Positions 16,006 to 25,515 of a stretch of DNA of 26,738 nt are shown piece by piece; positions within the stretch are counted from its first letter, which is position 1; every line of letters begins with the position of its first letter. The position numbers and the translations under genes were made by a program. Source of the DNA: an uncultured Eggerthellaceae bacterium (GTDB lineage: Bacteria; Actinomycetota; Coriobacteriia; Coriobacteriales; Eggerthellaceae); NCBI GenBank assembly GCA_946631805.1, contig CAMPAJ010000001.1, positions 1-26,738 on the forward strand, in the 5' to 3' direction. Below the pieces are notes generated by a model. The model searched no databases. It worked only from the letters and a program-made list of their open reading frames with translations, and was not told where the DNA came from.

Positions 16006-17097
16006 CTATATGCGCACCGGCATGACCAAATATAGGTAGTTCTCGTCGCCCATCGCCTTGAAGATGCCCGGTTTCAGCGCGCCCTGGATCTCGAACGATA
16101 CGTCCGAGGAATCCATCGCGGTCAACCCTTCGCTCACGTAATGGCTGTTGAAACCTATTTCCACATCCTCGCCCTCGATTTCGGCTTTTACGATTTCTTG
16201 CGTAGAGCCCACATCTTGGTTCGTGGTGAGCTGGATCGTCTGGCTCGGCACGTTGACGCTGAAGCGCACCTGCGAACCTGATTTTTCCAGAAGCGATGCG
16301 CGTTTTACGGCCGACGACAACGCGGACTTGGAAACTATGCAGCGGGTCTCGTACGACGAGGGTATGAGCTGCTTGTAATTGGGGTAACGGCCCTCGATGC
16401 GACGGTTGATGAACACGGTACCCGCATACGATACGATGATTTGGTTTTCCGCCAGGGCAAACGAGATGGTCTCACCTGTTTTGGGAAGGCCCGCCAGATC
16501 CGACACGAACGAGCCGGCTATGACGGCGCTAAACTCCTGCGCCCCTTCCTCGAGCGGGTGCTCGGCCACGGCCAAGCGATACGAGTCGGTTGCCACCATC
16601 TTGAGCGTTTGATCTTCGACGCTGATCAAAACGCCGGTGAGGATCGCACGGCTCTCGTCCTTCGACACGATGCGGCACACCTTGCGCGCCATTGTGGAAA
16701 ACGCTTCAAACGGCACGCTGATCTGCTGCTCCGGTTCCACGACGGGAAATGCGGGGAAATCGACGGGATTCATGCAGCGAATGGAAAACGAAGAGGCTTC
16801 GCACGAAATGACCGCGCCTTCATCTTGCGTTTGGATGTGAACGGCGGCGTCGGAAAGGTTTTTGACGATATCCACCACGAGTTTGCCGGGAAGGACGGTG
16901 GAACCGGGATCCTCGACGAGCGCAGGAGCCGTATATTGAATGGAAAGCTCCAAGTCCGTTGTCTGGAACGTCACCTCGTCCCCAACCGTCTGGACGAAAA
17001 TACCCGAAAGAACGGGCAGCGTGGAGCGGCCGGAGATACCCTTTTGGACGATAGTCAGGGCGTTGAGCAATTCTGATTGGCTGATGCTGAATTTCAT
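16006..17097 (-). CDS. dnaN: DNA polymerase III sliding clamp (beta subunit)
   Basis: This is the ring-shaped clamp that tethers the replicative polymerase, 363 residues from ATG 17097. The start is fixed by GAGGAG eight bases upstream and by the family-typical MKFSISQSELL beginning; a longer in-frame reading upstream is not supported. Conserved features include ALTIVQKGISGRSTLPVLSGI, the TDLELSI stretch, ATDSYRLAV and the typical C-terminal LYLVMPVRI. It is followed by recF. It is divergent from the ATPase/dnaA unit, an arrangement unlike the usual dnaA-dnaN operon. Confidence 0.98.
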   Translation of the reverse strand: MKFSISQSELLNALTIVQKGISGRSTLPVLSGIFVQTVGDEVTFQTTDLELSIQYTAPALVEDPGSTVLPGKLVVDIVKNLSDAAVHIQTQDEGAVISCEASSFSIRCMNPVDFPAFPVVEPEQQISVPFEAFSTMARKVCRIVSKDESRAILTGVLISVEDQTLKMVATDSYRLAVAEHPLEEGAQEFSAVIAGSFVSDLAGLPKTGETISFALAENQIIVSYAGTVFINRRIEGRYPNYKQLIPSSYETRCIVSKSALSSAVKRASLLEKSGSQVRFSVNVPSQTIQLTTNQDVGSTQEIVKAEIEGEDVEIGFNSHYVSEGLTAMDSSDVSFEIQGALKPGIFKAMGDENYLYLVMPVRI

Positions 17098-17138: not shown

Positions 17139-17193
17139 ATTCAGCTTTCCACGTGAAAACCGCGCAGAGAAAGGTGAATTTCAAACATGAAAA

Positions 17194-17566
17194 TGTGGAA
17201 AAGGTGGATAACTCGCGTTTTACCAGTACGGCGTTGTGGAAAACTCGATTTCATGGGCAATCTCGTGAATTCGAAAGAATTTTTCCACTGCGTTCTCATC
17301 TGCGATTTCATGAGATTGTGAAATGTTATTAAGCGTTTGAACTGGTGTTTTTTACCTTATGAACGCGCTTGACATTCCATTTGCTTTCAAAATCGCAGGT
17401 AAGGACAAATCCACCATTTGAAGTCATCATTCCCCGCAACTCTCCCACCTGCGCTTTGTTTTATTCATGCTGATGAGCGAGTTATTAACAATTCTATTCA
17501 AAATTCACCACCCATATTCCACGTTCATTCACGGTTTTCCACTTTTGTTGAACAAAATGGGGAAAA
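17194..17566. other. DnaA-box cluster in the dnaN/ATPase gap
   Basis: The 572-base divergent gap (17098-17669) holds TGTGGAAAA (reverse complement of TTTTCCACA) at 17194-17202 and 17235-17243. Near-matches are GGTGGATAA 17203-17211, TTTTCCACT 17281-17289 and 17535-17543, and TGGGGAAAA 17558-17566. AT-rich stretches lie around 17480-17520 and 17590-17645. The gap could be part of a split origin or a regulatory titration site; no gene is seen in it. Confidence 0.65.
17337..17351 (+). promoter_or_regulatory. Origin-region motif copy 1 (TTGAACTGGTGTTTT)
   Basis: First of three copies of TTGWACTGGYGTTTT, one in each gap around the ATPase gene and dnaA. There is no matching -10 at promoter spacing, so it is more likely a protein-binding site than a -35. 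Confidence 0.55.
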
Positions 17567-17635
17567 CTTTGAAAACTGCTTTTCGGGACATATTTTGTTT
17601 TCACGTGAATATTTCATCTATTCATGAATGACCTA

Positions 17636-17641
17636 TATAAT
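17636..17641 (+). promoter_or_regulatory. Candidate -10 of the GHKL-winged-helix gene
   Basis: A perfect TATAAT lies 28 bases upstream of ATG 17670, giving a leader of about 22 bases. The -35 (TTCATC at 17 bases) is weak. Confidence 0.5.
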
Positions 17642-17669
17642 TTCAAGACACCGAAAAGAAAGCACACTG

Positions 17670-18632
17670 ATGAACGCAGCTCAAACGCAAGATACTTTCG
17701 ATTATTCATACGTCGACGCCACGGCGCGCATCGCGCTGTACGACGACCTTAAATCGGCGCCCAGGGTAACCGAAATCCCGCCCGCCACCACGAACGAATT
17801 CATCGAGCACCTAACGACCGCTATTTACGAGCAATCCAAGCTTGTTGGTGGAAAAGTACCATACACGCTGATCAGAGAGGTTTCCGAAAACTTCATACAC
17901 GCGCAGTTCAAGGAAATCGTCGTCTCCATACTGGATAACGGCAACACCATACGCTTCGCCGACCAGGGTCCCGGCATCCAGGAAAAGGAAAAAGCCCAGC
18001 AACCTGGTTTCTCATCCGCAATCGAGCCCATGAAAAAATACATTCGCGGGGTCGGTTCCGGATTCCCCTTGGTCAAAGACTACCTCGACAACAGCGAAGG
18101 CTCCATTCAAATAGAAGACAACCTCGTGTCGGGCGCCGTTATAACCATAAGCCTCGAGCAAAACAGGTCGCATCAAGACCAAATAGGGTTTTATCAACCC
18201 GGGCAATACCAGCCTACGGGAACCCAAGCCGAAGCTTCCCAACCTGCAGCATGGCAACCTCGCGACACTAGCCGGCAGACCTATGCTCCAAACCGTTCCA
18301 ACGCCGCGCCTGCGGCATATGCAACATCGCCGTATGGCCAGCAAAATCATGCTGGCGCGTATGCAAACCAGCAGGTCGTGACCAGCCACGGCGGCGTGCC
18401 GGCTGCATTGATTCCGCAGCCGCTATCCGATCGCGAGAAGCTGTTCATACTTGCGCTGTTCCGCGAAGGAGATCTTGGAGTTACCGACCTCAAGAACATT
18501 ACCGATACGCCCGGATCGACGACGTTCAACACACTGAAGAAGCTCGAAGAGATGGGCATCGTCCAAAAAGCGGCGGGGAAAAAGCGCGCGCTCACCGATT
18601 TCGGGTACGAGGTTGCCGCCCAAATATCGTAA
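17670..18632 (+). CDS. GHKL ATPase with C-terminal winged helix, upstream of dnaA
   Basis: The protein has 320 residues from ATG 17670. Its N-terminal half is a histidine-kinase-type ATPase fold: N box EVSENFIHA (70-78), G1 box DQGPGI (98-103), G2 box RGVGSGF (126-132), then beta strands to about 162. No dimerisation/phosphoacceptor His domain and no TM segment precede it, so it is more like anti-sigma kinases (RsbW/SpoIIAB) or orphan GHKL ATPases than a sensor kinase. A Gln/Pro/Ala-rich linker spans about 165-250. Residues 252-320 form a MarR/ArsR-like winged helix (SDREKLFILALFREGDLGVTDLKNITDTPGSTTFNTLKKLEEMGIVQK). It would thus bind ATP and DNA. It precedes dnaA by 134 bases in the same orientation. 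The function is unknown; a regulator of initiation is conjecture. Confidence 0.88.
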   Translation: MNAAQTQDTFDYSYVDATARIALYDDLKSAPRVTEIPPATTNEFIEHLTTAIYEQSKLVGGKVPYTLIREVSENFIHAQFKEIVVSILDNGNTIRFADQGPGIQEKEKAQQPGFSSAIEPMKKYIRGVGSGFPLVKDYLDNSEGSIQIEDNLVSGAVITISLEQNRSHQDQIGFYQPGQYQPTGTQAEASQPAAWQPRDTSRQTYAPNRSNAAPAAYATSPYGQQNHAGAYANQQVVTSHGGVPAALIPQPLSDREKLFILALFREGDLGVTDLKNITDTPGSTTFNTLKKLEEMGIVQKAAGKKRALTDFGYEVAAQIS

Positions 18633-18639
18633 TCCGACT

Positions 18640-18716
18640 TTTTCCACAGTACTTTTGAACTGGCGTTTTATACGTTCTAGGAATGTTTTCCACATACAGG
18701 GCCAAAGTTTTCCACA
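18640..18716 (+). promoter_or_regulatory. Three consensus TTTTCCACA DnaA boxes in the dnaA promoter
   Basis: Identical TTTTCCACA 9-mers lie at 18640-18648, 18686-18694 and 18708-18716, all in the same orientation. The last ends seven bases before the -10 of dnaA. This is the expected arrangement for autoregulation by DnaA and may also contribute to origin activity. Confidence 0.75.
18655..18669 (+). promoter_or_regulatory. Origin-region motif copy 2 (TTGAACTGGCGTTTT)
   Basis: Second copy of TTGWACTGGYGTTTT, between two DnaA boxes in the dnaA promoter. It differs from copy 1 at one base. Confidence 0.55.
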
Positions 18717-18719
18717 TTT

Positions 18720-18728
18720 TGGTATACT
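18720..18728 (+). promoter_or_regulatory. Extended -10 promoter of dnaA
   Basis: TGGTATACT (18720-18728) is an extended -10 with TATACT. The predicted start is about 32 bases before ATG 18767. No good -35 is present; the space it would occupy is taken by DnaA boxes. Confidence 0.65.
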
Positions 18729-18766
18729 CGGTGCCCCTAGAATTTGCAATCGAGGCGGGGTGTGCC

Positions 18767-20299
18767 ATGAACAGCGAACAACTCACAAACGAATGGAAGC
18801 GCGTCTGCGACGTCATCCGCTCGTACGAAACCATCAATGCATCCCAGATGAACGCGTTCTTCTCTCGTCTGCAACCGCAGGCCATGAGCGAAGACTTCCT
18901 GATGCTCACGGCCGACAACGATTTCATAAAGACGTGGATTGAGCTCCATTACGCACGCTACATCGAGCAAGCGCTCTATGACTTGTACGGGAACCAATTC
19001 ACGGTTGCCATCGAGGTCGACATCAACCAGGCGCCCCCGGCCGAGCCGGCAAAACCCGCTCCGGTGGAATTCGCGCCGCAAGCACCCGAAACACATGTGG
19101 AAGAAGCTTCCATCGAACAAGCTGCGATGAACACCGCGCCGAAAGAGGAACCGCCTGCAACCACGCAGGTCCAGGTCGCTTCCGAAAAAGGAACGCAGAA
19201 CCAGGTCCCTGGCCAAGGCGATACCGCAAAAAGCCTACTCTCTTCGGTATCGACCCTCACGTTCGAGAACTTCGTCATCGGCGAATCCAACCGCATGGCC
19301 TATTCGATGGCCGTCGCAGTCGCAGAAGAGCCGGGGCGCTCGATTTTCAACCCGCTGTTCATCTACGGTCGGTCCGGCTTGGGCAAGACCCACCTGATGC
19401 GCGCTATCCAGAATTACGTCAACGAAACGTATCCGCACCTCAGAGCCGTATACGTAGACTCAGCTGACTTCCTGAGCGGGTATGTGGACGCAACGGTCGC
19501 CCACGACAAACAGAAGTCGAGCTTCAAGAATTTCAAGAACCAGTACCAAGATGCCGACATCCTCATGATCGACGATATCCAATACCTCCAAGGAAAGGAT
19601 CAGACGCTCGACATCGTCTTTCAGATATTCAACCGCATGGTCGACGAGGGCAAGCAGGTCATTCTTTCGGCTGACCGCGCCCCCAAGAACATCACGATGG
19701 ACGAGCGGTACCAAAGCCGATTCAACAGCGGCGGAACGGTCGACATACAACCGCCCGAAGTCGAAACGAAACTCGGCATCATCAAGAGCTTCGTCGAGGA
19801 GTACAAGGTGACGAGTGGGTTGGCATCGTTTGAGCTTCCCGAGGAAATAGAGCGCTACATCGCGGAAAACTCGAGCTCCAACATCCGCGAGCTCAAGAGC
19901 GCGGTTACCAAGGTCATATACAACATGACCTCGATGAACAACGACAGCATTACCATCAGCGACGTTTCGCGCCTGCTCGAGAACCATTTTTCGGGCGGCG
20001 CGATGAAGAAGCTCGTGGTTGGGGACATTCAGAAGCAGGTCGAAAATTACTACGACGTGAGCCATGCCGACCTCGTGGGGCAAAAGAGGTCGCGCAAGAT
20101 AGTCTACGCGCGCCAGATCGCCATTTACCTTTCGCGCCAGATGCTCAACCTCCCCTATAACTCAATCGCCAAGAACTTCGGCGGGCGCGACCACACAACC
20201 ATCATGTACTCGGTTACGAACGTCGAAGAGAAGATGAAGGAGAACAGGGACCTGCGCGAGGAGATAGAGAACATCAAGCGTCGCATACGCGAGATGTAA
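18767..20299 (+). CDS. dnaA: Chromosomal replication initiator DnaA
   Basis: This is the AAA+ initiator that binds DnaA boxes and opens the origin. It has 510 residues from ATG 18767. Domain I is about 1-85; a Pro/Ala/Glu/Gln-rich domain II linker runs from about 88 to 158. The AAA+ core starts at TLTFENFVIGESN, with Walker A GRSGLGKT (201-208) and Walker B ILMIDD (265-270). Domain IV ends with the DnaA-box recognition motif GGRDHTTI (472-479). An ATG further upstream gives an N-terminus unlike DnaA and would overlap the promoter, so it is rejected. It is on the plus strand, divergent from dnaN, and 134 bases after the GHKL-winged-helix gene. Three DnaA boxes in its promoter indicate autoregulation. 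Confidence 0.98.
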   Translation: MNSEQLTNEWKRVCDVIRSYETINASQMNAFFSRLQPQAMSEDFLMLTADNDFIKTWIELHYARYIEQALYDLYGNQFTVAIEVDINQAPPAEPAKPAPVEFAPQAPETHVEEASIEQAAMNTAPKEEPPATTQVQVASEKGTQNQVPGQGDTAKSLLSSVSTLTFENFVIGESNRMAYSMAVAVAEEPGRSIFNPLFIYGRSGLGKTHLMRAIQNYVNETYPHLRAVYVDSADFLSGYVDATVAHDKQKSSFKNFKNQYQDADILMIDDIQYLQGKDQTLDIVFQIFNRMVDEGKQVILSADRAPKNITMDERYQSRFNSGGTVDIQPPEVETKLGIIKSFVEEYKVTSGLASFELPEEIERYIAENSSSNIRELKSAVTKVIYNMTSMNNDSITISDVSRLLENHFSGGAMKKLVVGDIQKQVENYYDVSHADLVGQKRSRKIVYARQIAIYLSRQMLNLPYNSIAKNFGGRDHTTIMYSVTNVEEKMKENRDLREEIENIKRRIREM

Positions 20300-20613
20300 G
20301 TTGGGTTTCCTTTCGGTATGCCCTCGTATTAACCCACAAGAACCTCTAAATAATTTTTTATATAGTTGTAGTAATAAAGACGGTTGAAATGGGGATTATC
20401 TGAATACTACCTGCTCAATGGCTGAAAATCATGTTTCAAAAATAGTGGATTACAGACAGGTTTATCAACAAGGTAAAACTGCCTTGCCCAAAACCTTGCC
20501 GTTTTCCAACCTGTATCCCACGCTTTTTCGCCTTCATTCAACCGTGTTTTCCACAATGGGTTAACCGGATTCACGATTGTTATGTCAAAAACATATACAA
20601 CTATATATAGGGG

Positions 20614-20628
20614 TTGTACTGGTGTTTT
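20614..20628 (+). promoter_or_regulatory. Origin-region motif copy 3 (TTGTACTGGTGTTTT)
   Basis: Third copy of TTGWACTGGYGTTTT, seven bases after the right arm of the 12-bp inverted repeat. It differs from copy 1 at one base. Confidence 0.55.
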
Positions 20629-20727: not shown

Positions 20728-20862
20728 ATGAAGCGCACTTATCAACCTAACACTCGCAAGCGTGCGAAGTGCCATGGCTTCCGTGCTCGTATGGCAACGA
20801 AGGGTGGCCGCGCAGTGTTGGCCCGTCGTCGTGCAAAGGGTCGTAAGCGTCTTACCGTCTAG
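20728..20862 (+). CDS. rpmH: Ribosomal protein bL34
   Basis: A 44-residue, strongly basic protein of the large ribosomal subunit. The sequence begins [18 protein letters not shown] and continues [26 protein letters not shown], which is the full L34 signature and length. AAAGGG lies nine bases upstream of ATG, and a sigma70-type promoter precedes it. It is the first gene of the conserved rpmH-rnpA-yidD-yidC-jag cluster, and the next start is six bases after its stop. The residue pair Cys15-His16 sits where Asn/Thr-His is more common. Confidence 0.98.
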
Positions 20863-24492: not shown

Positions 24493-25515
24493 GTGGGTAT
24501 ATTCGACAGCTTCAGACGCGATAGGAAAACCTCAAGCGAGCCTTCTTCTGTTACCGTTCCAGAGCAGAAGAACGAGGATGCGTCTTCGCAGAATGAAACA
24601 GAGGTTTCGAACGATGTTTCACGTGAAACATCTGAGCAAGATGTCGCAACCGAAGATTCTAAGAAGAGCGTGCTCGATGTCGATGAAAGCGCCTTTGTCG
24701 CCACGCCTCTAAAATCGTATGACGAGAAACTGCCTATCACGAACGCTGTTGGTATCACCAAAGTCATCTCGATTATCAACCAGAAGGGCGGCGTCGGAAA
24801 ATCGACGACGGCAATTAACCTGGCTGCTGCGCTTGGAGAACAGGGAAAGCAAGTGCTGCTGGTGGATTTGGATCCGCAGGGAAACACGACGAGCGGTCTT
24901 GGCGTAGACAAGAGCCAGCTGCCACGCTGCATCTATAACGTTTTGCTTGATGACGGGAAAATCGAAGATGTGATTATCCCCGACGTGTGCCAAGGCCTCG
25001 ACTTGGCGCCTGCAACCATCAATCTTGCCGGCGCTGAAGTAGAGCTTGTTTCGGAGATGGCGCGCGAGCAAAGGTTGAAAGATGCCGTCGGCTCGATGAG
25101 GGGAAAGTACGATTACATCTTCGTCGATTGTCCCCCTTCCTTGGGTTTGCTTACCGTCAATGCTCTGGTCGCTGCCGACAAACTGATAATTCCCATTCAA
25201 ACTGAGTTCTATGCACTCGAAGGTGTGACAAAACTTCTTGAATCGATGAAACGTGTCAAAAGTAGGCTTAATCCATCGCTCGAGATTTTCGGGATTCTTC
25301 TTACCATGTATGATGGACGCACAACGTTGTCACGACAAGTTGCAGCAGAAGTGCGAAAGTATTTTGGCGAGCAAGTTTTCGAGACAATTATTCCTCGTAC
25401 GGTAAAATTGTCGGAAGCACCAAGTTACGGTATTCCCATAACTCAATATGATCCCTTGGGCAAAGGTGCTGCCGCATATGTGAATCTTGCTAAGGAAGTG
25501 ATGGAACGTGGCTAA
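24493..25515 (+). CDS. parA: Chromosome partitioning ATPase ParA (Soj)
   Basis: A Walker-type ATPase that, with ParB and parS, segregates chromosome origins. It has 340 residues from GTG 24493, favoured because GAGGAGG lies five bases upstream; ATG 24469 in the same frame has only a weak site. The first ~88 residues are an acidic/Ser-rich extension, unusually long for Soj-type ParA. The deviant Walker A QKGGVGKSTT is at 97-106, with the signature lysine Lys98, and DLDPQGN at 125-131. The region coding residues 41-46 contains a perfect parS site. It overlaps parB by eight bases, so the two are co-transcribed. Confidence 0.97.
   Translation: MGIFDSFRRDRKTSSEPSSVTVPEQKNEDASSQNETEVSNDVSRETSEQDVATEDSKKSVLDVDESAFVATPLKSYDEKLPITNAVGITKVISIINQKGGVGKSTTAINLAAALGEQGKQVLLVDLDPQGNTTSGLGVDKSQLPRCIYNVLLDDGKIEDVIIPDVCQGLDLAPATINLAGAEVELVSEMAREQRLKDAVGSMRGKYDYIFVDCPPSLGLLTVNALVAADKLIIPIQTEFYALEGVTKLLESMKRVKSRLNPSLEIFGILLTMYDGRTTLSRQVAAEVRKYFGEQVFETIIPRTVKLSEAPSYGIPITQYDPLGKGAAAYVNLAKEVMERG
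24615..24630. other. parS: parS centromere site inside parA
   Basis: TGTTTCACGTGAAACA is a perfect 16-bp palindrome identical to the widespread ParB-binding consensus. It lies within the 5' part of parA, where it encodes VSRET in the non-conserved extension. Confidence 0.95.

Follow-up and report, generated by a model that had tools for sequence, protein, structure and literature searches.

A possible site for a DNA-bending protein at the replication origin and in dispersed inverted repeats of Coriobacteriia

Some of the enterobacterial bacterial interspersed mosaic elements (BIMEs), in which repetitive extragenic palindromic (REP) sequences are inverted relative to each other, have a site for integration host factor (IHF) at their centre. 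In the consulted part of a description of the Escherichia coli replication origin, oriC contains one IHF site and clusters of DnaA boxes in opposite orientations, and IHF bends the DNA so that flanking sites meet (PMC8407004). Correia repeat enclosed elements (CREE) of Neisseria, in the section of the source cited here, consist of inverted repeats and a core able to bind IHF, which was suggested to aid synapsis of their ends (PMC2649163). In this study we analysed a motif found in a stretch of 26,738 nucleotides from an uncultured Eggerthellaceae bacterium (assembly GCA_946631805.1, contig CAMPAJ010000001.1, positions 1 to 26,738; hereinafter the window), where it occupies the gaps around dnaA and an adjacent gene for an ATPase with a winged helix. 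With a probability of about 0.45 we suggest that this motif is an asymmetric site of ~18 bp (TNTGAMCTGGKRTTTTRY) and that its binder in Eggerthellales and related Coriobacteriia is an abundant protein which bends DNA. That such a protein would bend DNA is proposed by analogy with IHF at E. coli oriC and in CREE. In the literature searched, which covered few subscription papers, no report of the motif and no study of a Coriobacteriia origin was found.

In the window, TTGWACTGGYGTTTT has exact matches at 17337-17351, 18655-18669 and 20614-20628, all on the plus strand, and no further exact match. Exact matching and gene layout therefore confirmed the claim of the sequence-only reading that a 15-bp motif is present on one strand, once in each of the gaps dnaN/ATPase, ATPase/dnaA and dnaA/rpmH. 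With up to three mismatches six matches were registered, compared to a mean of 1.73 in shuffled sequences, and none of 100 shuffles reached six. A fourth, degenerate copy, TTGAGCAGGTAGTATT, was found on the minus strand beside the predicted unwinding core (20363-20422).

Conservation at the origin was estimated for 45 loci of relatives, which were found with the ATPase protein and are nearly all titled Coriobacteriia (Eggerthellaceae, Slackia, Adlercreutzia, Collinsella and similar); together with the window they make 46. Since the de novo motif search upstream of the ATPase gene gave pairs of DnaA boxes and not the motif, the motif model was seeded with the sequence of the earlier reading. 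The core pattern TGAMCTGGKRTTTT with at most two mismatches was registered upstream of the ATPase gene in 29 of 46 loci on the plus strand and in 8 of 46 on the minus strand, with 1.3 expected per strand from shuffles, and in the gap after dnaA in 6 and 5 of 42 loci, respectively, with 0.4 expected per strand; as these loci themselves were the source of the core pattern, part of the excess is built in. The unmodified 15-bp sequence, with the same tolerance, has a plus-strand copy upstream of the ATPase gene in 12 of 45 relatives. In the ATPase/dnaA gap TGAMCTGGKRTTTT was registered on the plus strand in one locus of 39, the window, and on the minus strand in none of 39, so that no counterpart of copy 2 was seen in the other 38 loci tested. 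Partial matches at the place of copy 3 were found in loci L003 and L015. From the intergenic comparison across Coriobacteriia proposed by the earlier reading, copy 1 thus emerged as kept, copy 2 as seen in the window alone and copy 3 as weakly conserved, and the motif is conserved broadly at the origin only as its first copy, upstream of the ATPase gene. In this copy the motif is constant and the flanks have diverged between species. It is present in both arrangements of the ATPase-dnaA block, which has the orientation of the window in 16 of 46 loci (window included) and the opposite one in 28, while contig ends cut the other 2. These two orientations stand relative to dnaN-recF-gyrB and rpmH-yidC; in L039, L040 and genome G122 dnaA is opposite to the ATPase gene, not in tandem with it. 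The motif looks like a genuine conserved protein-binding site.

A short form of the motif was registered at a second place of the origin. The gap after dnaA of the relatives has tandem DnaA boxes, CCG and a TTATTACTACTACTA stretch, and this core looks like the bacterial basal unwinding system (BUS), which it resembles in the consulted part of the BUS description (PMC8287927). Its consensus, built from the same loci, scores at least 20 matches in 42 of 42 gaps, the lowest scores (20-22) being near chance level by estimate. Relative to the first DnaA box of the core, the module TGAMCWGG, with up to two mismatches allowed, has an offset of -20 in 14 and of -19 in 17 of 42 loci, 31 in all; no other offset between -40 and 0 was registered in more than 3 of them. 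Common to this core and BUS are the DnaA boxes, the spacer that contains GC and the trio-like TTA/CTA repeats beside the short copy, while the TGAMCWGG module, 19-20 bp away across the boxes, is different. To our knowledge, this module is not part of the described BUS. In the window, exact copy 3 sits apart from the unwinding core within the same gap. As for the DnaA boxes upstream of the ATPase gene, the tandem pairs given by the de novo search fall into one motif that is nearly always on the plus strand and another that is nearly always on the minus strand, and in the window these two flank copy 1 on either side. Like the IHF site of E. coli oriC, copy 1 is a candidate protein site within the origin with oppositely oriented DnaA boxes around it, while its sequence is other. 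In this part the earlier proposal of a binding site for an origin-linked regulator stood: the motif is protein-site-like, conserved at the origin in many relatives and kept in a short form at a fixed spacing from DnaA boxes; its restriction to the origin did not.

All genome-wide tests were run on genomes of relatives. In the strict scan of 25 of them (the genome of L018 is outside this sample) the exact pattern gave 87 copies in 22 genomes, 0-10 per genome, and eight of these copies were identified upstream of the ATPase gene, the eighth being in L025. Control patterns in the same genomes gave 6 copies with one extra base between the halves, 11 with two core bases changed and 0 when reversed. 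The extended motif TNTGAMCTGGKRTTTTRY has 135 copies in 67 of 296 genomes of the class, its reversed control again giving 0. The motif is asymmetric and constrained in its spacing. It is not restricted to the origin, and the conservation confined to origin gaps, by which the earlier reading was to be supported, was not what the scans found; the numerous copies across the genome that were to refute it are present in relatives.

Flanks of 86 of the 87 sites were analysed (all but the one in L025), and genes in them were called by our own codon score, inspected on the window alone. Nine sites are inside called coding sequences, seven are origin copies, in 11 a neighbour gene falls outside the flank examined, and the remainder are in 17 convergent, 13 divergent and 29 tandem gaps. 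By these counts the sites have no preference for promoter-type gaps, and on the same ground the promoter reading was rejected. A regulon of an ordinary transcription factor, with no relation to DNA architecture, would agree with the position of the sites, mostly outside called genes and in some cases 67-250 bp from gene starts; it is nevertheless distinctly unlikely, since convergent gaps are as common as divergent ones, neighbouring genes in the sample inspected have no common theme and inverted repeats are centred on the site. The SOS box of LexA, which we take to be GAAC-N4-GTTC, was rejected as well: it is a dyad with a free centre, while in the motif the central GG belongs to the best conserved positions and TTTT takes the place of GTTC in the right half. 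Orientation of the sites relative to replication, compared by eye in four genomes, had no clear bias. After collapsing duplicate flanks, TGACAGG and AAAAAGT took no fixed position near the sites, and DnaA boxes numbered 12 in 52.8 kb near non-origin sites and 11 in 221.6 kb far from them, a comparison which was not used because the far set is mostly coding.

A tRNA end was found within 20 bp of the site in 3 of 60 loci (L048, L111 and L127). In L111 the site is 2 bases from the end of tRNA-Asp and 103 bp from the end of a phage-type integrase gene (L111:1897-2093), so that it stands between this gene and the tRNA-Asp cluster, where an attachment site is expected. Other sites beside integrase genes are those in L123 and in L091, where the integrase gene is partial. 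Viral contigs gave 3 matches to the motif, and in the open reading frame lists of 2 of these 3 contigs an integrase was not recognised. Integrase-adjacent sites would fit an IHF-like role.

Many sites outside the origin have a position inside inverted repeats. Ungapped arms were searched within 150 bp, and repeats with a score of at least 13 were regarded as strong. With origin copies included, 60 of 113 sites exceed all 20 flank shuffles for inverted arms. Omission of sites with N or short flanks left 103, and subtraction of the origin copy L158 left 102, with all 45 strong repeats retained; inverted repeats around a conserved core, as in CREE or miniature inverted-repeat transposable elements (MITEs), were found at 45 of 102 non-origin sites. 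Decoys placed at midpoints of other intergenic gaps had a strong repeat in 15 of 218 cases for gaps of at least 150 bp, in 6 of 119 for at least 300 bp and in 4 of 96 for at least 400 bp. The rate of strong repeats was 36 of 75 at loci from the exact scan of 25 genomes and 9 of 27 at loci from the extended scan of 296. Their centre has a median position of +6.0 from the first base of the motif, whose own centre is at 6.5, and lies within 6 bp of the motif centre in 35 of 45 strong versus 9 of 48 weak repeats, so that the motif is centred in an inverted repeat at about a third of non-origin sites (35/102). The median loop between the arms of strong repeats is 100 bp. The arms vary between elements, with a rough common consensus, from inside outwards, of AATAANGCGTTTTTCTGCAGAA, and two or more repeat units on each side of the central motif were seen in L101, L118, L062, L105, L107 and L115. 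Around copy 1 of the window the repeat scores 11.9, which is below the cut-off of 13; none of 300 flank shuffles scored as high, and its spacing is like that of strong elements. In L041 the motif-centred arms consist of DnaA-box pairs.

These elements resemble CREE as short dispersed elements in which inverted repeats enclose a core able to contain a site for an architectural protein, and BIMEs as dispersed intergenic inverted repeats. Unlike in CREE, the sequences are other, the arms vary around a constant central motif, and the elements are known from sequence, with mobility only putative. Unlike in BIMEs, where each arm is a REP hairpin, the arms here pair across ~100 bp, and there are 0-10 exact motif copies in each of 25 genomes. 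The motif could be part of mobile miniature elements recognised by a transposase, with the origin copy as a domesticated relic. Long inverted arms with a rough common consensus, similar elements at two places of one genome (L105/L107 and L083/L085) and a 430-bp element-bearing stretch of G003, which in its close relative G010 is replaced by 58 bp, are in line with this explanation. We consider it unlikely, because one centre is common to elements with differing arms, the stretch missing in G010 is longer than the element, and the short copy beside the unwinding core keeps its DnaA-box spacing in most loci, which a relic would hardly do. The motif as a transposon end was rejected: the neighbours of 12 sites, viewed by eye, look like diverse genes or spurious frames and not like transposases. 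Folding of flanks with duplicates collapsed gave, among the folds listed, many sites flanked by long arms that are complementary to each other, with strong predicted pairing, and a few sites, such as L048, are terminator-like, as one could expect if the motif were part of a transcribed RNA hairpin, either a terminator or a substrate of RNase III. Such an RNA is nevertheless very improbable, since the motif is at the symmetric centre and not in the stem, origin copies have no such stem among the folds listed, and in 20 loci searched no Rfam family covers the motif, the hits being two tRNAs and two riboswitches, none of them overlapping it.

The protein proposed earlier as a binder was the adjacent HATPase/winged-helix protein, which would regulate its own gene, dnaA and the origin. 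Its gene adjoins the motif copies, the conserved copy is upstream of it in both block orientations, and the ATPase occurs widely, in 264 of the 296 genomes of the class. The motif and the ATPase do not, however, go together. Genome G182, which may be incomplete, has no ATPase match in a 14-kb stretch around dnaA and none genome-wide at E <= 1e-15; in this stretch dnaA, dnaN, recF, gyrB, rpmH and yidC gave matches, nothing between dnaA and rpmH matched the ATPase, and upstream of dnaA the motif is nevertheless present as TTTGAACTGGTATTAT with one mismatch. Altogether 4 of 67 genomes with the extended motif are without an ATPase match at this threshold (G082 is listed as lacking one, and G182, G208 and G241 follow from their absence among the matches), though they may be incomplete, and 201 of 264 ATPase genomes are without the extended motif. 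In 10 motif-bearing loci the mean identity is 44% for the winged helix, 52% for its recognition helix and 72% for the ATPase domain; over all 17 ATPase rows it is 38% for the winged helix and 63% for the ATPase domain. As G182 keeps a site with no ATPase match, the winged helix diverges and the sites have no promoter preference, binding by the ATPase is improbable, and the earlier suggestion is disfavoured.

For the bending protein that we prefer, the family of E. coli IHF was considered and rejected: HU/IHF (PF00216) was found in 0 of 15 genomes tested (G015, G018, G017, G003, G092, G266, G005, G011, G025, G023, G007, G090, G263, G002 and G004), with controls positive in 9 of 14. This is one more difference from E. 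coli oriC. In the same 15 genomes actinobacterial IHF (NF041260) scored above the curated cut-off without exception, and six of them have two matches. Identity of 14 other copies to that of G011 is 73-86% for 11, 58-59% for two from Collinsella and 48% for the second copy of G005. Actinobacterial IHF is favoured over HU/IHF because the latter was not found, and it is the leading candidate binder of the motif.

Copies elsewhere, often midway between long inverted repeats, suggest a DNA-folding site rather than an origin-only switch. The bound protein, for which actinobacterial IHF is the candidate, would fold DNA back on itself and bring together sites on both sides. At oriC, arrays of DnaA would sit on the folded DNA, namely at the box clusters that flank the conserved copy before the ATPase gene and at the unwinding core beside the short form. 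Outside oriC the site would be the centre of dispersed intergenic inverted-repeat elements, whose two arms ~100 bp apart could meet despite the stiffness of DNA owing to the bend. One can go further and suppose that a sequence-specific architectural protein of Coriobacteriia, probably actinobacterial IHF, which until now has been taken as non-specific, replaces E. coli IHF where the HU/IHF family is absent, folds oriC for DnaA and has a site that became the centre of several families of dispersed inverted repeats; in this complete form the scenario is possible, if doubtful.

Several observations weigh against a folding site. Strong inverted repeats are lacking at 57 of 102 non-origin sites, and no centred repeat was seen at copies 2 and 3 of the window. 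At origin copies, tested in 28 of 46 loci (those with a plus-strand motif score below 16 were left out, here and in the count of box orientations), a centred repeat beats all 60 shuffles in 3 of 28 cases and is equalled or beaten by at most one shuffle in 6; the mean score is 7.2, compared to 6.5 for off-centre controls and 6.05 for shuffles. In these 28 loci the orientation of DnaA boxes is only weakly reversed to the right of the conserved copy, 19 versus 13, with 54 versus 8 to the left. The sites are partly non-independent, as close relatives G003 and G010 have several in common. Two Collinsella genomes, G023 and G025, have actinobacterial IHF and yet 1 and 0 strict motif copies. TGAMCTGGKRTTTT does not correspond to the IHF consensus of E. 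coli, WATCARNNNNTTR, as given in the consulted part of PMC8407004, although overlaid by eye it fits part of the positions. The protein of Mycobacterium tuberculosis, mIHF, is reported in the consulted parts of two sources to be sequence-non-specific, with 153 sites in chromatin immunoprecipitation (ChIP) and no common motif (PMC3724605, PMC6155035).

Positions of all features in the window are collected in Table 1. For the ATPase gene a start at 17670 is likelier than one at 17628. Besides, the window has parS-like sites, so called by a consensus that we assume for parS: GTTTCACGTGAAAC at 24616-24629 and two degenerate ones at 17146-17159 and 17598-17611, located next to dnaN and to the ATPase gene; if up to one mismatch is allowed, there are 6 parS-like matches on both strands against 0.2 expected.

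Table 1. Features of the origin region in the window (positions in nucleotides of the whole stretch)
Feature	Position	Strand	Remark
dnaN	16006..17097	-	
DnaA box TTTTCCACA	17194..17202	-	member of tandem pair TGTGGAAAAGGTGGATAA, left of copy 1
DnaA box TTTTCCACA	17235..17243	-	left of copy 1
Left arm GTTCTCATCTGCGATTT of inverted repeat around copy 1	17292..17308	+	similar arms in L002
Motif copy 1 TTGAACTGGTGTTTT	17337..17351	+	dnaN/ATPase gap; copy kept in relatives
Right arm AAATCGCAGGTAAGGAC of inverted repeat around copy 1	17390..17406	+	
DnaA-box-like stretch, opposite orientation	17535..17552	+	right of copy 1; de novo motif 1, minus strand, offset 438 of 572
ATPase gene (HATPase_c domain and winged helix)	17670..18632	+	
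Three TTTTCCACA DnaA boxes at 18640, 18686 and 18708	18640..18716	+	around copy 2
Motif copy 2 TTGAACTGGCGTTTT	18655..18669	+	ATPase/dnaA gap
dnaA	18767..20299	+	
Predicted origin unwinding core	20363..20422	-	degenerate motif copy, two DnaA-box-like sites, CCG, DnaA-trio-like TTATTACTACAACTA
Degenerate motif copy TGAGCAGG	20410..20417	-	offset -19 from the first DnaA-box-like site of the core, on its 5' side
DnaA box TTTTCCACA	20547..20555	+	upstream of copy 3
Motif copy 3 TTGTACTGGTGTTTT	20614..20628	+	dnaA/rpmH gap; weakly conserved
rpmH	20728..20862	+	named by sequence and conservation

With its fixed place beside the unwinding core, the TGAMCWGG module would extend the core as described so far. 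Should actinobacterial IHF prove to be the binder, a ready list of sites makes its sequence specificity, apparently lacking in the mycobacterial protein, testable, and its use both at the origin and in repeat elements would be a case of convergence with IHF of E. coli.

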